Origin: Sphingopyxis macrogoltabida
GTDB taxonomy: Bacteria > Pseudomonadota > Alphaproteobacteria > Sphingomonadales > Sphingomonadaceae
Direction of reading: 5' to 3'
DNA length: 64,000 bases
Assembly: GCF_001307295.1 (NCBI RefSeq)
Contig: NZ_CP012700.1
Location: 561,001-625,000, forward strand
The number at the start of each line of letters is the position of its first letter. The stretch's first letter is position 1. Positions 16,995 through 28,780 of the stretch are shown here, in pieces. Both the position numbers and the translations under genes were made by a program. The notes beneath the pieces are model-generated. The model saw nothing but the letters and a program-made list of their open reading frames with translations, searched no databases and was not told where the DNA came from.

Positions 16995-19829
16995 CTATCG
17001 AGAGAAAAGTTCGAACGGCGCCCAATGGGCAGGGTGCGCCACGCGCGCTTCGCCGTCGCTTCCCTTGCGGATCTTGCGGATCGCCTCGCGGAGCGCGGTG
17101 GCGGGATCGGAACCGGCGCGCAGTCCGCGGACGGTGCCGACCGATAGGCGCCGCGCGACATCGTCGCGGACCGGCCAGTGGCTGGCCATCACCTCGTCCG
17201 CACCGGCGAGGAAAAAGCCCTGTACCAGCCCCGAAAGCTGCGGCCGGTCGGCACCGGCGGCGCCCGCGGTGTTGCATGCCGACAGGATGACCAGCCGCGC
17301 CGGCAGGCTGAGACCGCCGATCTCGCTCGGTTTGAGCAGGCCGTCGTCGCCGCCGGCCGGGGTCAGCAGCAGTGCCGGTTCGTCGAGCCCGTCGAGTTCG
17401 CCCGAGATCAGGCCGTGCGTCGCAAAAGCGAGCACGGCGCCGCGCGGCACGGTGGTCGCGCGCAATTCGGCTTCGGTCGCGCGCTCGCCGATCAGCAGGC
17501 GCGAATTGCCGCCGCCGATCGCGGCGGCCAGCGCCGATAGCTCGCGCGCGGCATCGGGAAGCTCGGGTAAGGCATCGATGGCCCGCGCGGTGCCGGCGGA
17601 GCGCATCGCCATCAGCGATCCGGCCTTGCGGCCTTCGACCCCGCCGAGAGCGATCAGCGTGCCGTCGGCGGGCGCCGCATCGCCATGCGGATCGCCGGCC
17701 CGCGGCGCGCGGACGCGCCGGCTGAGCGCGAGGCGGTCGATCAGATAATCGCCGCTGCGGGCGTCGGGCACGAGCAGGCCGAAGGGCAGCGCACCGAGCG
17801 GGCCGTTGGCGATCACCGCGAGCTGGCGCATGGGGCGCAGCATTGCGGCCGCCTTTTCCGGAAACAGCAACGCATGGAGGTCGGCCGCCGCCGCCCGGTC
17901 GAAGGCGCCGCGATCGCCCGCGTCGAGCGAGGCGCGGAGCCGTGCGACGAGCGCCCCGACCGGCGCGTCGGCCGGGATCAGATATTGGAGCGGTTCGCCG
18001 CCGCGCGTCAGCGTCGCCAGCCACGCGCCGCCCAGATCGGTGAGCATCGCGGTTGCGCCGGCCTCGCCGGTCGCGGCTTCCATTTCGGCGAGCGTCGACG
18101 GCGTGAAGACGAGCCGGGCGAGTTCGGGCGGCGCAAGCCCTGCGTCAAGCGCAAGGATCGCCTGCCGGTTGGCCGCGAGTTCTCCGGTCACGGCGACAAG
18201 GTCGAAGGCCGGATCGGGGCGTGCGAGGTTCGCCTCGATCCGGGCGTTCAGCCCCTGACGCGCGGCCAGCAACTGGCGCCGTTCGGCAACCTTGGTCGCG
18301 AACACCGTGTCGGTCGCTGCGGCGCGTTCGCTTTCGGCGATCGCCAGCGCATCGTCGATACTGCTGCGCGCCGCCCATTGCTGCGCCCCGAACGCGTCGT
18401 CCACGGCGCCCCGACGGGCGAACAGTTCGGCGAGCCAGCCATAGGCCGGGCGCTGGCGTTCGGCCTGCGCCGACCCGCGCGCGAGGTTGGCGCCGAGCGT
18501 GAGCGCGGCGAACAGGCTGCGCGCCTCGGCAACCAGATCGGCGGCCGGACGGCTGTCGCGGCGATCCTGCGCGCGCAGCAACATGGCGCGGGCCAGCAGC
18601 AGGTCGGGGTGGTCGGCGGGCAGCATTTTCATGCGCAGCGCGACCGCTTCCGCCGCCGCATTTTCGGCGCCCGCCCAGTCGGCGTTGGCGAACGCCGCCT
18701 TCGCCAGATTGTCGCGCGCATTGGCGCGATCGCGATGCCCTTCGGGCAGGCGCTCGTCGCGGATGGCCAGCAGCTCGCGGGCCAGCGGCTGCGCCTCGGC
18801 GCCGCGGCCGGTGCCGATCAGCGCGATCAGCCGCGTATCGCGCGCGACGAGCGCCCGGTCGCTTTGCGCGCCGAGCTGCTTGTCGATGATCGGCGTCGCG
18901 ACGTCGAGGAAGGCGATGGCGTCGTCATATTGCCTGGCGCGGGTCAGCGCCTGCGCAAACTGCACCCGCATCGCGGCGCTGTTCTGGTTGGGCCCGCCGC
19001 TTGCCTTTTCGGTCAGTTCGAAAGCGCGCCGGATCATCGGCATCGCGTCGTGCGGGCGGTTGATGCGAAACAGGACGGCGCCGAAATTGGCGTAGAGATT
19101 GGCCATCATCGGGTGGTCGGCGCCCAGTGCGCCGCCGGTCCGCCCGATGGCATTCTGCGCCGCGGCGATTGCTTCCTCGGTGCGGCCGGCCGAATAGAGA
19201 TAGACGATCCGGTTGGCGCTCCACACCGCGACCGCCGGAGGGACGGGGTCGAGCGCGAGCCCCATCTCGATCGCCTGCGCGTTGCGTTCGAGCGCTTCGT
19301 CGAGGCGCCCCTGTTCGAGATAGGCGGCGGCAAGATTGGAAAGCGCGACGGCGTGGTCGCTACTCGCCGCGTCCTTCGCATAATCGGCGACGAGCTGTTC
19401 GTTGAGCGCGAGCGAGGCCTTATGATCGCCCTTGAAGCTGGCGATATAGGCGCGGAGGCTGAGCGTGTCGCACCAGCTCTTGCGATAGCTGGGCGTCTTT
19501 TCGAGTTGCGGCGCGATCCGGTCGATAATCGCAAGCGCCGCGTCCATCTCGCCCGCCGAAGCGCGCGAGATGGCGCCATAGAGCTCGCGCGCCGCGATCT
19601 CGGGATGCCCGGCCGGGTAGAGGCGCCGCGCCTCGGCCAGCGTTTCGTCGGCGAGGGCGCGATAGGCGGCCTGATCGGCTTCGGGTTCGGCGACCTCGAT
19701 GCGCGCAACGAGAGCGTCGAGCTTCGCGCGGTCGACGGGCGAGGCCGGCGCTGCGGCTACTCCCGCGCTCCACGCCAGACATATTGCCATTGCCGCCAGC
19801 CGCGCCGCCCGGCCCGTTCCATCCCGCAT
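16995..19829 (-). CDS. Secreted TPR-CHAT protein (predicted caspase-like peptidase)
   Basis: The 944-residue protein has a signal peptide (ARLAAMAICLAWSAGVAAAP). About 500 residues of tetratricopeptide-like repeats follow (AVALSNLAAAYLEQGRLDEALERNAQAIEMG; MANLYANFGAVLFRINRPHDA). The C-terminal CHAT domain has a His-Cys dyad: His805 (LAFATHGLISGE) and Cys852 (LVILSACNTAG). CHAT proteins are caspase-clan peptidases or scaffolds. This one is predicted to be exported, so it acts in the periplasm or beyond. It lies near a FecR protein and a two-component system on the same strand, with a dispersed repeat between. Confidence 0.88.
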   Translation of the reverse strand: MRDGTGRAARLAAMAICLAWSAGVAAAPASPVDRAKLDALVARIEVAEPEADQAAYRALADETLAEARRLYPAGHPEIAARELYGAISRASAGEMDAALAIIDRIAPQLEKTPSYRKSWCDTLSLRAYIASFKGDHKASLALNEQLVADYAKDAASSDHAVALSNLAAAYLEQGRLDEALERNAQAIEMGLALDPVPPAVAVWSANRIVYLYSAGRTEEAIAAAQNAIGRTGGALGADHPMMANLYANFGAVLFRINRPHDAMPMIRRAFELTEKASGGPNQNSAAMRVQFAQALTRARQYDDAIAFLDVATPIIDKQLGAQSDRALVARDTRLIALIGTGRGAEAQPLARELLAIRDERLPEGHRDRANARDNLAKAAFANADWAGAENAAAEAVALRMKMLPADHPDLLLARAMLLRAQDRRDSRPAADLVAEARSLFAALTLGANLARGSAQAERQRPAYGWLAELFARRGAVDDAFGAQQWAARSSIDDALAIAESERAAATDTVFATKVAERRQLLAARQGLNARIEANLARPDPAFDLVAVTGELAANRQAILALDAGLAPPELARLVFTPSTLAEMEAATGEAGATAMLTDLGGAWLATLTRGGEPLQYLIPADAPVGALVARLRASLDAGDRGAFDRAAAADLHALLFPEKAAAMLRPMRQLAVIANGPLGALPFGLLVPDARSGDYLIDRLALSRRVRAPRAGDPHGDAAPADGTLIALGGVEGRKAGSLMAMRSAGTARAIDALPELPDAARELSALAAAIGGGNSRLLIGERATEAELRATTVPRGAVLAFATHGLISGELDGLDEPALLLTPAGGDDGLLKPSEIGGLSLPARLVILSACNTAGAAGADRPQLSGLVQGFFLAGADEVMASHWPVRDDVARRLSVGTVRGLRAGSDPATALREAIRKIRKGSDGEARVAHPAHWAPFELFSR

Positions 19830-20115: not shown

Positions 20116-20706
20116 CTAGTCGAGGACGAGGTAATAATTCACCCGCCGCGCGCCGCCGTTGCTGAGTTCGATCCGATAACGCTGGGTAAAGACCGGGGTG
20201 AACCGGCAATCGCGGGCGTGCGCCGGGGTGCGGTCGCAGACGAGCTTGCCGTCGCCGTCGTAGATGCGCAGCCGGAGTTCGCTTTGCGGCTGCGAGTCGG
20301 CCGCAATGGTCGCCGCCTGTCCGGACAGGAAGAGCTGGTTCAGGCTGGTCTCGTTGCCGGGCGCGAGCGTGCCGCGCACATAGCCGGGGCCGAGCGCGCG
20401 GCCGCGTAACGGCGGGAGCTTGTCGGCAACGGCGGCGCGCCAGGCGGGAACCGGGTCGTCGGCGACGGCGTCGTCGAGTGGCCGCGCGCCGCGCTGGCCG
20501 AGCCGGAGCAACGTCGACGCGAGCACCCGCTTGTCGCCATTCCCGTGCGCCGCGTCGGCGGCGGCGAGGTCGGCCGCGACGCCGCTGGCCCGCGATGCGC
20601 CGGACGGAGCGGCGGCGGCGTGGGGTTTGGTGCCATGCGCCGCGCATCCGGCAAGCGCCGCAACAAGGCCGATGCCGATCCAGCGGGAGTGACTGCGCCC
20701 GGTCAT
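20116..20706 (-). CDS. Predicted lipoprotein of unknown function
   Basis: The 196-residue protein has a lipobox (IGLVAALAGC, lipidated Cys21), then an Ala-rich linker and a C-terminal beta-rich domain (SLNQLFLSGQAATIAADSQ; SELRLRIYDGDGKLVCDRT; YRIELSNGG). The second domain resembles pre-peptidase or bacterial beta-sandwich modules. Its start overlaps the histidine kinase stop (ATGA), so it is part of the two-component operon and may be an accessory sensor or output protein. Confidence 0.7.
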   Translation of the reverse strand: MTGRSHSRWIGIGLVAALAGCAAHGTKPHAAAAPSGASRASGVAADLAAADAAHGNGDKRVLASTLLRLGQRGARPLDDAVADDPVPAWRAAVADKLPPLRGRALGPGYVRGTLAPGNETSLNQLFLSGQAATIAADSQPQSELRLRIYDGDGKLVCDRTPAHARDCRFTPVFTQRYRIELSNGGARRVNYYLVLD

Positions 20707-22046
20707 GTCGCCTGTTCCTTTACGATGAAGCGCGCGCCCTTTTCGGACGGCGCCAGCGTGAGTGTCAGATCGTGGCGCTCGGCGATCGCACGCGCCAGCG
20801 CGAGGCCGAGCCCGCTTCCCGGTGCGTCGGGCCGGACATTGGCGCTGCGATGGAAGCGTTCGAAGATTTTTTCGCGGTCGGTTTCGGGCACGCCGGGCCC
20901 GTCGTCCTCGACCGTCAGCACCGGACCCGGCGCGAGCGCGAGGCGCACCTTGCTGCCCGCCGGCGCATATTTGAGCGCATTGTCGAGCAGGTTGGTGACG
21001 AGCTGGCCCAGCTGGGCCTCTTCACCCTCGAAGACGATTCCGGGGGCGACCGACCAGGAAAAATCATGCCCCGAATCCTCGGCGCTGTCGGCGTAAAGTT
21101 CGCAGATGCGCGTCACCATCGCGCTGAGATCGACCGGGCGCAGCCCGTGGCGGTCGCCGCGCCGCGCCTTGCTCGCGGCGATGTCGAGCAGCGATTCGAG
21201 CATCGCCACCAGCCGCTTGATGTCGCCGCGCGCCTCGAGCAGTCGCGCCGCGACGGCGCTGTCGGTGCCCGCCGCGAGCGCCTTGGTGAGCCGCCCGTCG
21301 AGGTGCATCAGCGGGGTGCGGATCTCGTGCGCGATCTGGTCGGAGGCATCGCGATACGCCTCGATCAGCCGCTTTTGCCGCGACAGCGCCGCGGCGCTGT
21401 GGCCGGTGAGTTCGTCGATCTCGTCGCGCGCGGTGCCGCTGCGCAGCGTCGCCAGCCGGTCCTCGTCGGAATCGCGAAAGGCGTCGTTGATGCGCTCGAT
21501 CCGCCAGTGCAGCCGGCCCGCAGCGGCGCGGCCAAGCCCGCCGACGAGCAGCACGAACAGCGCGCCGCCGCCGAGAAAGACCAAAGCCACGCGTTGCAAC
21601 AGCGCGCCATTGTCGCCGGTATCGCGCGCGACGACGAGCTGGAGCGTGGGGCCGAGGCGGGTGGCGCGGGCATAGACTTCGGTGCCGGCGCCGATACGGA
21701 TCGTCCCGCTTTCCGAAACCCCGGCGTCGAGTTCGGGCCATTCGGCGATGTCGCCCGCGAGCCGCTCACCGCGGGCATCGGCGAGCATGTAATGCGGCGC
21801 GCCGCCGTCCGACGGGGTGATCGCCAGCCGGTCGGCGATGCGCCGTTCGAGTTCGCCGCGTCCGCTGGTGGCATAGATATCGACGAGCCCGGCGAGATCG
21901 ACATCGACCGCCTTGCGCGCCGAAGCGGCGACCGTCGCGCGGATCGTCTGGTCGGTCAGTATCCACAGGCCGGAGACGAGCGCCAGCGACAACAGGATCG
22001 CGAGGCGGACGATGCGCGAGAAGATCGAACGGCGGGCGATCGCTCC
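20703..22046 (-). CDS. Membrane sensor histidine kinase (start codon unclear)
   Basis: About 448 codons encode TM1 (IVRLAILLSLALVSGLWIL), a periplasmic sensor region, TM2 (LVFLGGGALFVLLVGGLG), HAMP-like sequence, the phospho-acceptor box (DQIAHEIRTPLMHLDG) and an HATPase domain (NLLDNALKYAP; DDGPGVP; GSGLGLALARAIAERH). No ATG, GTG or TTG occurs between the response-regulator stop and TM1. The first TTG (21992) would cut TM1, so the start is given only approximately. GGGAGG and GGAG lie just ahead of an ATC codon. It is coupled to the response regulator upstream and the lipoprotein downstream. Confidence 0.85.
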   Translation of the reverse strand, partial: GAIARRSIFSRIVRLAILLSLALVSGLWILTDQTIRATVAASARKAVDVDLAGLVDIYATSGRGELERRIADRLAITPSDGGAPHYMLADARGERLAGDIAEWPELDAGVSESGTIRIGAGTEVYARATRLGPTLQLVVARDTGDNGALLQRVALVFLGGGALFVLLVGGLGRAAAGRLHWRIERINDAFRDSDEDRLATLRSGTARDEIDELTGHSAAALSRQKRLIEAYRDASDQIAHEIRTPLMHLDGRLTKALAAGTDSAVAARLLEARGDIKRLVAMLESLLDIAASKARRGDRHGLRPVDLSAMVTRICELYADSAEDSGHDFSWSVAPGIVFEGEEAQLGQLVTNLLDNALKYAPAGSKVRLALAPGPVLTVEDDGPGVPETDREKIFERFHRSANVRPDAPGSGLGLALARAIAERHDLTLTLAPSEKGARFIVKEQAT

Positions 22047-22732
22047 TACCTCCCGTCGAGCAGGCGGTAGCCCGAGCCCCAGATGGTTTCGAGCGCGGGG
22101 GTCGCGAACTCGTCCTCGAGCTTGCGCCGCAGGCGGCCGACATTGACGTCGACGACGTTCGTCTGCGGGTCGAACGACATGTTCCACACATCGCGCAGCA
22201 GCATCTCGCGCGTCACCACCTCGCCGGCATTTTCCATGAAATAGCGGAACAGTTCGAACTCGCGCGGGCTGAGCGCGAGATGCCGGTTCTGGCGAAAGGC
22301 GGTGCGCGCCTTCACATGGCATTCGAACGCGCCATAGAGGATGACGGCGCTATGCTCGCGCCCCGATGCGCGGCGGTAGAGGGCGCGCAGCCGCGCCATC
22401 AGTTCCTCGGCCTCGAACGGCTTGGCGAGATAATCGTCGGCGCCCGCGTCGAGCCCTTCGGCGCGGTCGGTGGTGCGTCCGAGCGCCGAGAGCATGAGCA
22501 CCGGCGTGCCCACCCCGCTTTCGCGGAGCCGCTTGACGATCGTCAGCCCGTCGAGGTCGCCGAGCATGCGATCGAGGATGATGACGTCGAATTTTTCCAT
22601 GCCGGCGCGCAGCAGCCCGCCGGCGCCGCTGTTTTCCCAGGTGACGATGTCGCCGCGCGCGGCGGCGAGCGCCTGCACCTCGGAGGCGGCGCGCTGGTCA
22701 TCCTCGACATATAATATCTTCAGCGTTTCCAT
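22046..22732 (-). CDS. OmpR/PhoB-family response regulator
   Basis: The 228-residue protein has a receiver domain (acidic DD at 11-12, phospho-acceptor Asp54 in VIILDRMLGDLDG, Lys in YLAKPFEAEEL). A C-terminal winged helix follows (LSPREFELFRYFMENAGEVV; TNVVDVNVGRLRRKLE; IWGSGYRLLDG). It forms an operon with the kinase and lipoprotein. It follows the FecR/SLAM-like pair on the same strand after a 110-bp gap with a hairpin, so it could regulate or be co-expressed with that pair. Confidence 0.92.
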   Translation of the reverse strand: METLKILYVEDDQRAASEVQALAAARGDIVTWENSGAGGLLRAGMEKFDVIILDRMLGDLDGLTIVKRLRESGVGTPVLMLSALGRTTDRAEGLDAGADDYLAKPFEAEELMARLRALYRRASGREHSAVILYGAFECHVKARTAFRQNRHLALSPREFELFRYFMENAGEVVTREMLLRDVWNMSFDPQTNVVDVNVGRLRRKLEDEFATPALETIWGSGYRLLDGR

Positions 22733-22842: not shown

Positions 22843-25800
22843 TCAACGCGGCGCTTTGAAGCTGACCAGCCCGCCGAGCAGGCGCTCGGCGCGCTGGCGC
22901 AGGTCGGCCGCGTCGCCGGGCTGCGGCGCCGCCGTCGGCAGGGCAGGCGTACCGGGCGCGGCGACAGGCAGTGCGCCTGCCGACGATGCGGACCAGCGGC
23001 CCCAATCAGCCGAGAGCGATGCGGGCGGCGGCGAACCGGTCCCGGCGGGTGCGCCCGTCGGCAGCGGCGCCGTCGGGGCCGCAGTCGCCGCGACCGGGCT
23101 GCCGCCGCTGGGCGCCATGCGGGCATAGGGGTTGGTCGGCGCGGCCGGCTGGCCGGCGAAGGCGGCGACGCCCGAGACGACAAGCCCGGCGCCGGCGTCA
23201 TTGACCGTATAGGCGGCGCCGAAATGGGTCGCGCCGGGACCGAAGAGAGCGCCGCGCACATTGCTGGAGCAGGTGGCGGTGCAACTCGCCGCGGTGGTCC
23301 CGCTGATCAGCGCAAGGCCGTCTATCTCGTTGTTGCCAGTCAGGCGGTAGCCGCCGTTGTTGGGATCGGCCGCGCCGCCTGCGGTCTTCACGTTCCAGCC
23401 ATATTGGTCGATGCCGATATCGAAATCGAAGCCAACGCGCTTCGTCGCGAAATCGACCGCGAGGTTGCCGGTGAAACTGCCCGGTGCGAGGTTGGCCAGC
23501 CGGTCGGTCGGTCGCGTCGCGCCGACGAGGGCATAGTCGACACGGCCGGTCGTCGGCAGCGCGGTCGCGAAGGTGCCCGACAGGATCGGGTTGCCGCTGT
23601 TGGCGAGGTTCGGATCGTCGAGGCCGAAATTATTGGTGTCGAGCCAGCGCGTCCAGCCAATGACACCATCGACGCTGCCGCTCTCGTCGGCGGGGCCGGG
23701 GCGCTGGACGCCCTGCGGCGAGCCATTGTCGCGCGTCCAGCCGACCAGCACGCCCGCATCGTCATAGGTGACTTTCGAACGATATTGGGCGTCGAAATTG
23801 GCGTAGGTCAGGTTGATCAGATATTGGTTCTCATACTGGCCGGTCGCGATGCCGGGTTCCGGCTGTGGTTCGGGGTCCGGATCGGGGCCGGGCCCGCCCG
23901 AGCCCGTCGCGGCAAAGGCAACCGCGCCCTGGATTCGCTCGGCGGTCTGGAAATTGGGGTTGTCGACGGTCTGATAGGTCATGCCGACGCGGTCCGCCGA
24001 GCCGCCAAAGCCGCCGTAGAAGAGGATCAGGCAGCCGTCGCTGGAGCAGGCGTCGCCGTTGCCGGTCATCTTGCCGTTCATGTTGAACACCGGATTGACC
24101 CCGAAGGTGCTGACGAGGGCGCCGTCGGCGCGGCCTTCCGACGCGAAGTCGTAGCGCACGTCGCCGCCCGCTTCGGGCATGACGATGGTGCCGTCGAAAC
24201 CATAGCTGAGGCTGGAGGCGTCGAAGCCGATGGTCAGGTTCGCGTCGAAGGTGCCCGGTGCGGCGCGGCCCGATGCGAAGACGGGTTTCGTGGCCGCGAG
24301 CACGTCGTAATCGATCGTGCCGCTGGTCGGCAGCGGCGTCGTCAGCGGTGCGGTGACCACCCACGGAATGCCGCCGTTCGCGCCGACGTCGTTATTGAAG
24401 CCGCGGAAGCGTGGGGCGCCGTCGGTATAGCGTCCGACAACGACCGAGGCATCGCCCGCGACGTCGACCGCCTGTGCGGTGCCGATGCCGAGATCGCCGG
24501 CATCGGTGAGCACGCCATTGGCGTCGAGTTGCGGCGTGGCCGAGGCCTGGTAGGAGACGCCGGCATGCACGGCATAGGCGCGGGCGCCGGTGGTGCCGCT
24601 GGGAAAGCCGCCGGCATATTGCGGATTGTCGGGGCCACCGGGATCGGGAAGGCCCGCGAACTGGTCGGGATCGCCGCCGGTTTCGAGATAGGCGAGATAG
24701 TCGGTCAGGAAAGCGAGGACCGCCCCCGAAAGGCGGTCGTCGAGCACGCCCGCCCCGTCGAGCAGCGTAAGATAGGTCTCGATCTGCTCGGGCGTCAGCG
24801 CGGTATATTCGGAAGGCCGGCCGCCGCCGAGGAGGAAGCTGTAATAGGCCTGCACCGCCGCGAGATAGTCGCTGTACACCGGCAAGCCGCCATATTCGAC
24901 CGGATCGCCGCCCGCGGCGAGGAAGGCGTAATATTGCGCGAAGAAAGCGTCGAGCCCGGTGTGGCTCGTGAAGCCGCCGGCGCCGTTCAGCGCCGCGAGA
25001 TAGGTCCTGATCTGCGCTTGCGTCAGCACGGTATAATCGCCCGGCAGCCCGCCTGCGGCGAGGAACGCATAATAGGCGTTGAGCGCCGAGACGTAGTTGG
25101 CATAGACGGGCAGGCCGCTGAAGCCGTTCGGCGCTCCGCCGCCTGCGAGATAGGCGAAATAGGCGTTGAGCAGGTCGGCGTTGGCGCCGAGCAGGCTGTT
25201 CGCCTGTCCCGATCCGGTGACGCTGGCGAGGTAGGTTTGCAGCGTTGTGAGCTGCTGTTCGTCATAGTCCGCCGGCAGCCCGCCCGCGGCGAGAAAAGCG
25301 GCATAGGCGTTGAGCGCCGCGGCGAACGCCGCGAAATCGGGCGGTACCGGCAGGCCCGCAAAATTATCGGGATTGCCGCCGCCCGCGAGGAAGGCGAAAT
25401 AGTCGCTGTAGAAGCCCGCGAGTTCGGCGAGGAAGGCGTTGCTCGCCCCGGCGGTTTGCAGCGCCGCGAGATAGGCGCGGATCGTTTCCTGCGACAGCGC
25501 GCCATAGGCGGAAGGAACGCCGCCGTTCGCGAGATAGGCATAATAGGCCGATAGCGCGTTGGCATAGCCGGCGAAGATGTTCGCGTTCAGCCCGGGAAAG
25601 GCGTTCGGCTGTCCGCCATTCTGGAGGAAGGCGAGATAGGCAGCAAAGAATTCGGTGCGGTCGCCGAGGAAGCGGTCGAGCGCGCCGCCCGCCTGCAGGG
25701 CGGCGAGGTAGGCGCGAAGCTGTTCGATGTCGGCGCCGTCATAGTCCGACGGCAAATTGCCGGCGGCGAGGAACGCGAAATAGGCGTCGAGCTGGGACGC

Positions 25801-27321
25801 ATAGCCCGCGAAGATATTGGCGGGGAGGCCGGCAAAGGCATCGGGCGCACCGCCGCCGCGCAGGAAGGCGAGATAGGCCGAATAGAAGGCCGCCCGGTCG
25901 CCCGCGACCGTATCGAGCAGCCCCGCGTCGGCGAGCGTTTCGAGATAGGAGCGCAGCGTCGCGGCGTCGAGCGCGCCATAGGCGCTGGGCAGGCGGCCGC
26001 TGGCGAGGAAGGCGAAATAGGCGTCGAGCGCGGCGCGATATTCGGCCGCAAAGGCGATGCCGCCATTGCCGAGATAGGCGGTGAGCAGCGCGCGGTCGGT
26101 GGCCCCGAGCCGCTGGACGAGCCCGCTGTCGGCGAGGAAGCGGATATAGGCGTCGATCGTCGCCGCGCTGGCCTGACCGAAGTCGGCGGGATTGCCGCCG
26201 CCGCGGATGAAAGCGAAATAGGCGGCGGTCAGGTCGGTGAAGTTGCGGCCGAAGCGGTCAGGACTGCCGCCGCCCTGCAGGAAGGCGAGATAGGCGTCGG
26301 CAAGCACGCGATCCTGCGCGCCGAGCTGACCGAGCCGGCCGGTACGCCCGGCATAGGCGATGAAGGCGTTGATGTCGGCGAGGCTGGCGCCGCCGAAGCT
26401 CGACGGCGCGGCGTTCGAACGGAGCAGGTCGAGATACTGGCCGAGGAAAGCCGCATAGGCGGTGAGGAAATCGGCCCCCGACCTGCCGGCGGCGAGATGC
26501 GCCAGATAGGTGCGGATGATGTCGGCCTGCGCGCCCGGAAACGGTGTGCCGCCATAGGCGTGTTCGAGCCCCGCCGCACCGGCGACGAGCAGCGCGAGGT
26601 CGCCGCTCGGGAAGCTCTCGATCGCCGGATTGGCGACCGCCGCATCGACGCGCCGCGCCGCCGCGAGCACATCGCTCGATGCGCCCGCCGCCGCCAGCGC
26701 GTCGCCGAGCGTCACGGGCACGCCGTTCGCCGCGGCCGCCGCGGGGCCTCCCGCGCGCATGTCGGCGACCGGTGCATCGGCTGCATCGCCGGCGGCCGGC
26801 GTCGTCTGCGCGCCGTTCGAAACGACCTGCTGCGCGCGTTCGCCCGGCGCGAAGGCGAAAAGCTGGCCTGCCGCGAAGCGGCGCGGTGCGTCCGCCGGGC
26901 CGATATCGACCGCGCCGGTCAGCACATGGCCGCGGCCCTTGCCGTCGGCGCCGACGCTGAAGGTCGCCGCCGCCGCGCGCCCGGCGATACGGCCCTCGAC
27001 CCCGTCGGGCATGCGCACGACCGTCGTGCCGTCGCCGCCCGCGACGGTCAGGCTGCCGGCATAGAGATGGACCGAGCCGTCGGTGTCGATGCGATAGTCG
27101 GCGACGCCGAGCACCGAAACGATCGCGCCGTCGCCGAGGCGGACCTGCTTCAGCCCGTCGAGTTGGTTGACGCGGGCGCCGAATTCGAAACTCTTGTCGC
27201 CTTTCGACGAGAAGAGCAGGTCGCCGGCAAAGGCGGGGGCGGCGAGCGACAGGCTCGACGCGCCGACGAGCAGGGCGGCGGCTAGGCGAATTTGGGGGCG
27301 AAGCTGGGCGTTGTGCGTCAT
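22843..27321 (-). CDS. Giant FecR-domain protein with tandem 79-residue repeats and two C-terminal beta-barrel-like domains
   Basis: The 1492-residue precursor has a signal peptide (residues 1-32, ending APAFA). A FecR-like domain spans about 45-165 (VRLGDGAIVSVLGVADYRI; LTVAGGDGTTVVRMPDG). From about 290 to 893 lies an alpha-helical repeat region with six clear 76-80-residue units rich in AYxAFLAxGGxPxxF and IRxYLAAL. The C-terminal third contains two related beta-rich modules (about 905-1165 and 1185-1415). Both carry a version of P-TSG-IDY-x-ATKP, then APGTF-x-NL, and end in G-VAFA. They resemble the barrel domains of TbpB-like SLAM substrates. A Pro-rich tail ends the protein. It lies 21 bp behind the SLAM-like gene. 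Function is unknown; surface display is inferred. Confidence 0.82.
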   Translation of the reverse strand: MTHNAQLRPQIRLAAALLVGASSLSLAAPAFAGDLLFSSKGDKSFEFGARVNQLDGLKQVRLGDGAIVSVLGVADYRIDTDGSVHLYAGSLTVAGGDGTTVVRMPDGVEGRIAGRAAAATFSVGADGKGRGHVLTGAVDIGPADAPRRFAAGQLFAFAPGERAQQVVSNGAQTTPAAGDAADAPVADMRAGGPAAAAANGVPVTLGDALAAAGASSDVLAAARRVDAAVANPAIESFPSGDLALLVAGAAGLEHAYGGTPFPGAQADIIRTYLAHLAAGRSGADFLTAYAAFLGQYLDLLRSNAAPSSFGGASLADINAFIAYAGRTGRLGQLGAQDRVLADAYLAFLQGGGSPDRFGRNFTDLTAAYFAFIRGGGNPADFGQASAATIDAYIRFLADSGLVQRLGATDRALLTAYLGNGGIAFAAEYRAALDAYFAFLASGRLPSAYGALDAATLRSYLETLADAGLLDTVAGDRAAFYSAYLAFLRGGGAPDAFAGLPANIFAGYASQLDAYFAFLAAGNLPSDYDGADIEQLRAYLAALQAGGALDRFLGDRTEFFAAYLAFLQNGGQPNAFPGLNANIFAGYANALSAYYAYLANGGVPSAYGALSQETIRAYLAALQTAGASNAFLAELAGFYSDYFAFLAGGGNPDNFAGLPVPPDFAAFAAALNAYAAFLAAGGLPADYDEQQLTTLQTYLASVTGSGQANSLLGANADLLNAYFAYLAGGGAPNGFSGLPVYANYVSALNAYYAFLAAGGLPGDYTVLTQAQIRTYLAALNGAGGFTSHTGLDAFFAQYYAFLAAGGDPVEYGGLPVYSDYLAAVQAYYSFLLGGGRPSEYTALTPEQIETYLTLLDGAGVLDDRLSGAVLAFLTDYLAYLETGGDPDQFAGLPDPGGPDNPQYAGGFPSGTTGARAYAVHAGVSYQASATPQLDANGVLTDAGDLGIGTAQAVDVAGDASVVVGRYTDGAPRFRGFNNDVGANGGIPWVVTAPLTTPLPTSGTIDYDVLAATKPVFASGRAAPGTFDANLTIGFDASSLSYGFDGTIVMPEAGGDVRYDFASEGRADGALVSTFGVNPVFNMNGKMTGNGDACSSDGCLILFYGGFGGSADRVGMTYQTVDNPNFQTAERIQGAVAFAATGSGGPGPDPDPEPQPEPGIATGQYENQYLINLTYANFDAQYRSKVTYDDAGVLVGWTRDNGSPQGVQRPGPADESGSVDGVIGWTRWLDTNNFGLDDPNLANSGNPILSGTFATALPTTGRVDYALVGATRPTDRLANLAPGSFTGNLAVDFATKRVGFDFDIGIDQYGWNVKTAGGAADPNNGGYRLTGNNEIDGLALISGTTAASCTATCSSNVRGALFGPGATHFGAAYTVNDAGAGLVVSGVAAFAGQPAAPTNPYARMAPSGGSPVAATAAPTAPLPTGAPAGTGSPPPASLSADWGRWSASSAGALPVAAPGTPALPTAAPQPGDAADLRQRAERLLGGLVSFKAPR
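24643..26025 (-). repeat. Six in-gene tandem repeats of about 237 bp (79 residues)
   Basis: The units begin DAYFAFLASGRLPSAYG, DAYFAFLAAGNLPSDYD, SAYYAYLANGGVPSAYG, NAYAAFLAAGGLPADYD, NAYYAFLAAGGLPGDYT and QAYYSFLLGGGRPSEYT. Unit lengths are 79, 79, 80, 77, 76 and about 70. Each unit contains a second, related half with SAYLAFLRGGGAPDAFAGL-like sequence, so the ancestral unit may be about 40 residues. Degenerate copies extend upstream to about residue 290. Confidence 0.85.
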
Positions 27322-27342
27322 GGTCGTCTCTCCCGGTCCGGA

Positions 27343-28617
27343 TCAGAATTCGAGGCGAAGGCCGAGCGAGGCGGTCCAGCGCTCGTAATCGTAAAGGGCG
27401 ATGTTGCTCCAGTTGCGCGTCCAGGTGGCGCGCGGCTGGAGGAAAAGGGTGTCGGTCAGCGCGACCTTGATCCCCGCGGTGAGGTCGAGCCGCTCGTCAT
27501 TGCGCTCGACGAGGAACAGCGCGTCGGCCTGATCGTAGCGGCGCAGGTCGAAGGCGGCGCCCGCGACGAGCGCGATGCGGTTCGCGACCGGGAATTCGCC
27601 GCCGATATTGGCGCCGACGAACCAGTTAGATTCGGCATCGCCCGCCGCGCGGCGTGTCTCTTCCTTGCCGCCCGACAGCCCGGCGGCGATGGTGCGCGTG
27701 ACATAGCCCATGCCAACGGCATAGCGATCGGCATCGCGGGTCGGCGCGCCGTCATAGTCGAGCCGGTTCCACTGCGCCGACAGCGTCAGCGCACGGCCGC
27801 CGCTCAGCGTCTTGGTATATTGGCCGATGACGCCATAAGCGGTCCGATAGCCGTCGTGGCCGAGCCAGAATTTCTGCACTTGTCCCGACAAGGACACGAC
27901 GTCGCGATTGGCGAAGCTGTGCGCATAGCCGGCAGTCCCGGTCAGCGCCGCCTGATCGAAGCGGCGACTATCGAAATTGTCGCGCCAGTTGCCGAGTGCG
28001 CTCGCGAACAGCCGGTCCTGCCGTCCGATCGCGGTGATGGCGGACACGCCGCCCTGGATCTCGTAATATTCGTCGCCCTGCGCCACCGCACCCGGCCCCA
28101 GCGTGCCGGGGCCGAGGAAGCTAAACAGCGGGATGACGATGGTGTTGAGGTCGGTGGCGGCGTTGATATTGTCGTCGTAACCGGCGCGGGCGTCGATAAA
28201 GCCGGACACGTCGGAACCGCCGCCCGCGATCTGCTTGTCGAACTGCCGCACGAAGCCGGTGAAGCGCTGGCGCACCGGGTCGGGCAGGCTGGGGTCGTCG
28301 ACGACGGTGGCGAATTCCTGCCGCGCGGTGTCGATATCGCCGGCCAGCGCATAGGCGCGGGCGAGTTCGGCGCGCGCCGGGGCGTTCTCCGGCTGGACCG
28401 CGAGCACGCGCTGGAAGGCGATCACCGCTTCGCCGTAGCGCCCCGCGTCGAGCGCGGCGATGCCGAGACGATAGTCGAAACCGGGATCGCCGGCCCGCGT
28501 TGCGGCTTCGGCTGCCAGTTGGTCATATGCCGCCGCTTCCTGTGCCTGCGCGGCGCCATGCGGTGCGAGCAGGGCGATGAGCAGCGGTGCGGTGCGGGAA
28601 AAAAATCGTTTCGCCAT
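27343..28617 (-). CDS. TPR plus outer-membrane beta-barrel protein, SLAM-like (DUF560-type)
   Basis: The 424-residue protein has a signal peptide (PLLIALLAPHGAAQAQ) and TPR-like helices at about 40-115 (YRLGIAALDAGRYGEAVIAFQRVLAVQPENAPARAE). From about residue 140 it has alternating amphipathic strands ending in an aromatic-F terminus (WTASLGLRLEF). This layout (periplasmic TPR domain plus about 14-strand barrel) is that of Slam proteins, which move surface lipoproteins across the outer membrane. It directly precedes the FecR-repeat gene, its presumed partner. Assignment to SLAM rests on architecture and neighbourhood. Confidence 0.78.
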   Translation of the reverse strand: MAKRFFSRTAPLLIALLAPHGAAQAQEAAAYDQLAAEAATRAGDPGFDYRLGIAALDAGRYGEAVIAFQRVLAVQPENAPARAELARAYALAGDIDTARQEFATVVDDPSLPDPVRQRFTGFVRQFDKQIAGGGSDVSGFIDARAGYDDNINAATDLNTIVIPLFSFLGPGTLGPGAVAQGDEYYEIQGGVSAITAIGRQDRLFASALGNWRDNFDSRRFDQAALTGTAGYAHSFANRDVVSLSGQVQKFWLGHDGYRTAYGVIGQYTKTLSGGRALTLSAQWNRLDYDGAPTRDADRYAVGMGYVTRTIAAGLSGGKEETRRAAGDAESNWFVGANIGGEFPVANRIALVAGAAFDLRRYDQADALFLVERNDERLDLTAGIKVALTDTLFLQPRATWTRNWSNIALYDYERWTASLGLRLEF

Positions 28618-28780
28618 GGCCTCTTCCGTCGATCGTTGCGTTCGCGATGATCTAGGGTTGGAGCGGGGCGCTTGTCCGGTGACGAAGTTCGTCCGAATGA
28701 TGACAAAGGCTGATAGCTGTGGCGTGGCGGCCCGCGCGGCGACGGCGGTCGCTCAAATCATCGCGGGAAGCCGGGAGAAA

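Follow-up and report, generated by a model that had tools for sequence, protein, structure and literature searches.

A probable type 11 secretion system with a giant, unlipidated cargo in a putatively self-regulating gene cassette of Sphingopyxis macrogoltabida

Within the 64,000-nucleotide stretch of Sphingopyxis macrogoltabida DNA analyzed here (hereafter the window; contig C1, NZ_CP012700.1, positions 561,001 to 625,000), two neighboring minus-strand genes appear to encode an outer-membrane exporter of the type 11 secretion system (T11SS, or Slam type) and the giant secreted protein that would be its cargo. The genome measures about 5.1 Mb, with 4.76 Mb in this contig, and the closest named homologue of the cargo found by homologue search, 86% identical, also carries the name S. 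macrogoltabida. The exporter gene (27343..28617, 424 amino acids) stops 21 bp before the start of the cargo gene (22843..27321, 1492 amino acids, supported by its open reading frame, homologues and pairing), and both frames and the spacing bear out what had originally been predicted for this region. Further along the same strand follow, in this order, genes for a response regulator, a histidine kinase, a lipoprotein and a TPR-CHAT protein. Based on sequence comparisons and structural models, this is very probably a T11SS with a dedicated, giant and unlipidated cargo, inside a gene cassette that would regulate itself.

The exporter starts with a predicted signal peptide, and its model places helices at residues 21-130, where Pfam reports a TPR match, followed by 14 long barrel strands at residues 136-423 (strand count by eye). 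TPRs at the N-terminus and a 14-strand barrel at the C-terminus are the architecture described for Slam proteins (PMC7857515). The Pfam model SlipAM scores 22.3 bits against a cut-off of 22, and a margin of just 0.3 bit weighs against our assignment; this is also the one gene above the SlipAM cut-off in a Pfam scan of the window genome. SlipAM is matched by 15 and TPR_Slam by 25 of the 27 members of the exporter alignment, A1 (E<=0.01). Comparison of whole profiles, in fact, yields a 99.1% match between the exporter and six T11SS outer-membrane proteins of the genus over 366 columns, barrel included; the two of those six that were scanned, from L080 and L082 (L and G numbers denote our loci and genomes), reach 54.1 and 51.9 bits with SlipAM. 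These matches, together with the model, indicate that the exporter is an outer-membrane protein of the T11SS/Slam (DUF560, PF04575) superfamily, as the original prediction of a Slam-like TPR-barrel exporter had proposed.

The C-terminal third of the cargo had been claimed to hold two related beta modules, and two are indeed found there with motifs roughly as described: module 1 (residues 919-1154; 23860..24567, minus strand) carries LPTSGTIDY, APGTFDANL and GAVAFA, and module 2, the C-terminal lobe (residues 1174-1406; 23104..23802, minus strand), carries LPTTGRVDY, APGSFTGNL and GVAAFA. A module profile recovers 119 copies spread over the window protein and 37 homologues (38 proteins), with 2 to 4 in each, and structure prediction folds both window modules with confidence, so the two-module pattern is above chance. 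An eight-stranded C-terminal barrel was the feature whose absence would have spoken against the original proposal; the modules are predicted as handle-barrel lobes of the TbpB type, eight-strand barrel and handle included, resembling those of TbpB, NHBA, fHbp and HphA upon structure comparison. Regarding the family search, the outcome was divided. The cargo modules match the TbpB_B_D modules of lipoprotein cargo when profile is compared to profile (88.6%, P 2.6e-6), while the controls reach just 0.5% and 0.1%; the window cargo, however, has no match to Pfam TbpB_B_D itself. Of the 119 modules, 111 entered alignment A2, and of 81 rows, 77 entered alignment A4. Several further results weigh against a TbpB-type assignment: a direct TbpB_B_D match was seen in only 1 of 111 modules (E 0.098), slam_lipo matches 8 of 111 and always below its cut-off, and the global superposition on TbpB gives low TM-scores (TMq 0.15-0.19 among the first 15 matches listed). 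We ascribe the low TM-scores to lobe orientation and, due to the profile-profile match, we read the missing direct match as divergence beyond the Pfam model; with so few direct Pfam matches, homology of the modules therefore rests on profiles and folds. Sequence profiles of the PDB returned nothing convincing for the modules (best E 0.85) or for the cargo N-terminus (best E 0.028). We also considered whether the last modules form one group; nearest-neighbor agreement was 104 of 119, where shuffles averaged 67 and reached at most 88, but because the shuffle ignores relatedness we take this as a hint only.

Scanning genome contigs for a pattern based on the exporter alignment yielded 41 loci, and in 39 of them the next gene on the same strand is a cargo homologue, while the contig ends in the remaining two. 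The gap between the two genes is 14-47 bp in 37 of the 39, and in the other two the called start abuts or overlaps the exporter. Among 396 sampled genomes of the order, 17 carry the exporter (E<=1e-40), 15 the modules (E<=1e-6) and nine the head-plus-repeat region (E<=1e-20). In all 15 genomes with modules, the listed module matches lie on the exporter's contig and adjoin it, so that none of the sampled genomes showed an orphan module, and the two genomes with an exporter only show a contig end (G333, L072) or a broken exporter (G330, L079). Pairing of exporter and cargo is, then, close to obligatory, and the conserved neighborhood that the original prediction called for is present. Along with the TbpB-type lobes, such pairing supports the proposal that the giant protein is the exporter's cargo. 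A different view would make the exporter a TPR-linked porin or part of a polysaccharide exporter, with the giant protein as a periplasmic or wall-associated structural neighbor. Generic TPR and outer-membrane families do score equal to or above SlipAM, and the best fold matches of the exporter are the general porins CymA and OmpG, with no solved Slam among the 50 matches listed. CymA and OmpG have 14 strands each. We nonetheless regard this view as highly improbable, in light of the reciprocal pairing with TbpB-fold modules, of the profile match to T11SS outer-membrane proteins reported above, and of the role as putative targeting domain ascribed to the TbpB-type barrel in T11SS cargo (PMC12282271).

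The remainder of the cargo is unlike what its original label of a FecR-repeat protein implied. After a predicted Sec signal peptide (residues 1-32; 27226..27321, minus strand; cleavage site by eye) ending in an AxA site (APAFA/GD), a weakly assigned FecR-like domain occupies about residues 30-165 (26827..27234, minus strand), and residues 260-910 (24592..26544, minus strand) hold nine alpha-helical units of 66-80 amino acids, the last one partial, as delimited by a repeat hidden Markov model; structure prediction renders residues 640-890 all-alpha. The true repeats are these helical units and not FecR domains, so that the label was wrong. Even for the single head, the FecR assignment counts as a weak point of our reading: Pfam FecR does not match the window protein, among 40 N-termini of the family it matches three (best E 8.8e-4), and hhalign aligns the head only weakly to the clear FecR domain of a relative, L078 (27.8%, P 6e-4, 37 columns). 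Members of the family range from 1161 to 2228 amino acids, with 0 to 12 helical units and 2 to 4 lobes. The signal peptide was correctly predicted to lack an obvious lipobox; by eye, neither the window cargo nor any of 39 homologues shows one where cleavage is expected, while the L039 homologue has LVGC within its hydrophobic stretch. Absence of a lipobox does not by itself make a variant system, as had been suggested, since T11SS cargo that is soluble has been described before (PMC8406197, PMC8560813). Among candidate identities for the helical repeats, matches to Phage_int_SAM_1, DPC2 and XerC were rejected; Phage_int_SAM_1 alone passes its curated cut-off, no individual stretch is significant, and other integrase domains of Pfam are absent from the cargo. 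Pfam scores the same repeats (24592..26544) as the phage integrase SAM-like domain PF02899 above cut-off, and the call is precomputed in many database entries, where it is likely an annotation artefact.

The genes downstream of the cargo recur with the pair. In the window these are an OmpR-type response regulator (22046..22732; Pfam Response_reg and Trans_reg_C; start METLKILYV), a sensor histidine kinase (20703..22049; Pfam HATPase_c; start codon unassigned and upper end approximate), a 196-amino acid lipoprotein with an LAGC lipobox by eye (20116..20706), and a secreted TPR-CHAT protein with ATHG and SACN catalytic-type motifs (16995..19829; Pfam CHAT, E 9.4e-44), all on the minus strand. 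Counts for cassette and operator-like site are based on 39 loci and the window, with L064 and L066 left out. A regulator at least 61% identical is found in the flanks of 32 of the 39 loci, and a homologue of the lipoprotein, for which Pfam gives no family at E<=0.1, in those of 30. Among 99 relatives, 60 of them of the genus, four have the full exporter (G000, G021, G035 and G041) and another, G009, two divergent fragments; a kinase ortholog (at least 73% identity) and the 196-amino acid lipoprotein are found in exactly those four. In four species of the Sphingopyxis group, as judged from their sequences, kinase and lipoprotein thus travel with exporter and cargo. Many loci also hold what we call gene X, which encodes a secreted protein of about 290 amino acids, is present in 23 of 39 loci (for example L031:16629-17510 and L035:17209-18084), stands between the cargo and regulator genes in 20 of the 23, and usually has an operator-like site of its own. 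Gene X is absent from the window locus and gave no match in the window genome, in a search without a positive control; 944 homologues were counted among 8000 scored candidates. Although a resemblance to CsgG was considered, Pfam gave SH3_3 for 8 of 8 proteins and otherwise stray weak matches, and the CsgG idea was dropped. A CHAT gene adjoins the locus in 10 of 28 genomes (28 of the 41 loci, coordinates by eye) and lies in the flanks of some others, directly 3' of the cargo in L060, L062 and L063; of 16 CHAT frames inspected, 13 retain the THG as well as the SACN motif, and the other three run off the end of their locus. That CHAT stands beside only part of the set weighs against our reading. 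Exporter and cargo hence appear to belong to a cassette with the OmpR-type regulator, the kinase and the lipoprotein, often with the SH3 protein, and sometimes with the CHAT-TPR protein.

Upstream of the exporter lies a 42-bp operator-like tandem motif, CTATCAGCCTTTGTCATCATTCGGACGAACTTCGTCACCGGA (28675..28716, minus strand), whose 3' end is 57 bp from the exporter ATG. The pattern CTAAC-N6-TGTCA occurs exactly in 16 of 34 exporter-upstream regions (33 loci and the window), compared to no more than 3 for the best pair of this kind across five shuffles. A 42-bp matrix built from 32 upstream sites (consensus CTAACAGCATTTGTCATnnnnCTnACAnnnnTTGTCAnnnGA) and scored leave-one-out reaches at least 15 before the exporter in 34 of 40 cases; the window site scores 45.2 leave-one-out and, in a scan of the entire window, 47.7, with 4.9 for the next best. 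Because this first site is favored by the choice of seeds from upstream regions, second sites and the rest of each locus serve as control. A second site, outside the matrix, scores at least 15 in 29 of 39 loci, about 95-160 bp upstream of gene X or of the regulator gene and on the strand pointing at it; three sites are seen in loci that separate cargo, gene X and regulator from one another (L061, L073, L077), and the third-best score is below 12 except in L061, whose third site belongs to the regulator. Among eight additional paired loci that did not enter the matrix, five (L073, L074, L077, L079 and L087) have the exporter site, while eight loci with distant exporters score no more than 14.3. 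Direct-repeat sites before target genes, a feature of OmpR/PhoB-type regulons, are accordingly present; they mark the promoter of the exporter and, in the majority of relatives, that of gene X or the regulator. We infer that the linked regulator may bind the tandem motif.

A number of loci weigh against such a link. L050 has a site (19.6) and no regulator within 10 kb; L076, despite a 70% identical regulator, reaches no more than 15.9, at a place other than the exporter; L075 and L078 lack a site; L037 has neither a regulator nor a site above 8.9 (leave-one-out); L068 has a 61% identical regulator and scores 11.5 (L056 and L058, also at 61%, score 17.4 and 17.5); and L060, L062 and L063 keep the exporter-cargo pairing with no site, their regulators being only 33-35% identical. 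The TGTCA half-sites resemble the PhoB box, which, with L050 and L076, favors the alternative of a global motif, Pho-box-like or of another general kind, whose regulator is not the linked two-component pair. We find this unlikely, as 31 of 32 loci with a regulator ortholog have the site or sites and the three loci without a site just mentioned have a distant regulator only; identity of the regulator, moreover, correlates with site score (Spearman 0.50, n=32, relatedness uncorrected). In the window genome, an 18-base pattern derived from the window site matches nowhere else when up to 3 mismatches are allowed (its own match being there by construction), which argues in the same direction, though a reversed control pattern also gave one match in that genome. 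A decayed locus in G330 (L079:11656-12504) was also noted, in which a shortened exporter frame overlaps the CHAT frame and no module was found; its upstream site nonetheless scores 25.2.

From these features, a path for the cargo can be proposed. It would cross the inner membrane by Sec, and the exporter would recognize its C-terminal lobe, as has been proposed for TbpB; the chain would then pass the outer membrane, leaving the helical array and the FecR-like head outside. Because the cargo has no lipid anchor, it might be attached to the surface non-covalently or be released. The linked kinase would sense an envelope or external signal, and the regulator, by binding the tandem TGTCA-type repeats, would switch on export, cargo and itself. 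The CHAT-TPR protein could be a protease that processes the cargo, and the lipoprotein and the SH3 protein could be tethers in the envelope. For the cargo we favor a role as surface arm or adhesin-like protein. In its fullest form, which we hold tentatively and think possible rather than probable, the locus would be a regulated machine in which the sensor pair fires a single operator set, a multi-lobe, unlipidated cargo with an alpha-solenoid arm is exported, and the caspase-like CHAT-TPR protein and the lipoprotein/SH3 proteins process, release or tether it, to give a signal-controlled surface fiber of expandable length. The FecR-like head, the linked kinase-regulator pair and the repeated operator-like site could alternatively denote a FecR-type signaling protein, with a periplasmic sensing head and the lobes alone threaded into or through the outer membrane, so as to form a trans-envelope sensor that feeds the kinase. 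The weak assignment of the head and the lack of an evident membrane anchor in the cargo sequence (by eye) make us doubt such an arrangement, to which we assign a low probability, and we retain export of the giant protein as cargo.

Comparison with known systems helps define what is new here. Like Slam1/TbpB of Neisseria (T11SS-1A), the window system combines a TPR plus 14-strand barrel exporter (PMC8406197, PMC9090332, PMC7857515) with a cargo bearing two C-terminal handle-barrel lobes, and TbpB-type cargo is often encoded nearby; unlike it, the window cargo is unlipidated, far longer at 1492 amino acids, and comes with a FecR-like head and a linked two-component pair, and its family has 2-4 lobes and, in most members, a helical array. 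Similarity to HsmA/HphA and HrpB/HrpC (T11SS-1B) lies in the TbpB-type barrel, the Slam-type exporter and the lack of a lasting lipid anchor (PMC8406197, PMC8560813), but these cargos are small with one lobe, while the window cargo is giant, has several lobes and is accompanied by a regulatory cassette; HsmA/HphA, furthermore, sits in a haem locus with a TonB-dependent receptor. Pls-like T11SS cargo (PMC12282271) also has a long helical repeat region before a C-terminal barrel, although with an EEARKA motif, instead of a YLAFL-type unit of up to 80 amino acids and 2-4 lobes. Secretion of HphA depends on HsmA (PMC8560813) and translocation of TbpB on Skp (PMC9090332). A Sphingomonadaceae subcluster, 1C, has been named, soluble single-lobe cargo has been placed in 1B, and the remaining T11SS network clusters had no characterized protein in 2021 (PMC8406197); the seven exporters experimentally verified before PMC12282271 all belong to animal-associated cluster 1. 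Among the papers listed by full-text searches, no title or start of an abstract was found linking FecR, CHAT or a response regulator to T11SS, Slam or DUF560, or CHAT to FecR and secretion; PMC11233812 and PMC12075148, for example, hold both kinds of words for FecR and Slam in their full text, as do PMC13391677 and PMC5706477 for response regulator and T11SS or type XI, and FecR has 0 occurrences in PMC12282271 and PMC8406197. The cargo list published in 2025 (PMC12282271) could include some FecR-type soluble forms. On the features compared, the window system belongs to the T11SS save for a direct Pfam TbpB_B_D match, and the 1A-type lipid anchor is absent. Due to its architecture and linked regulatory cassette, we read it as a new T11SS variant, regulated and with a multi-lobe, unlipidated giant cargo.

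The predicted "Sphingomonas surface protein" (PMC12282271) shares with the window cargo its occurrence in sphingomonads and several TbpB_B_D-type lobes, and L073 and L074 also share its Pro-Thr linkers. Eight loci with distant exporters, 21-28% identical to the window's, were taken for comparison, and in six of them (L080-L084 and L086; 23-28% identical) the adjacent gene encodes a lipobox protein above the TbpB_B_D cut-off (6 of 6), with a Pro-Thr stretch in the N-termini of four, in contrast to the window cargo and its missing lipobox. The other two, L085 and L088, from other families of the order, showed no TbpB-type neighbor by eye, without a Pfam scan. The six fit the "Sphingomonas surface protein" kind, and the genus therefore holds two T11SS lineages, that of the window being the other; the lipoprotein-type lineage was not found in the window genome. 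The window lineage represents a clade with a near-obligatory cargo, which searches based on TbpB_B_D would miss, perhaps because its lobes mostly escape that domain. With a candidate regulator and operator in hand, expression and export can therefore be directly tested. The natural series, which begins with one lobe and no array (L078) and extends to four lobes and as many as 12 units, also allows asking which of the lobes signals export and what length of passenger can still be tolerated by a Slam-type barrel. At the short end of it, L078, from another family of the order, has an exporter 33-35% identical beside a 565-amino acid frame in which FecR is clearly matched (E 1.7e-9) and which has a Thr-Pro-Asp stretch, one module and no helical array, while L073 and L074 have a window-like head, three and two modules, respectively, and no match to the array. 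Since these three carry head and modules without the array, head plus lobes look like the core of the cargo, and the helical array resembles a variable-length insert.

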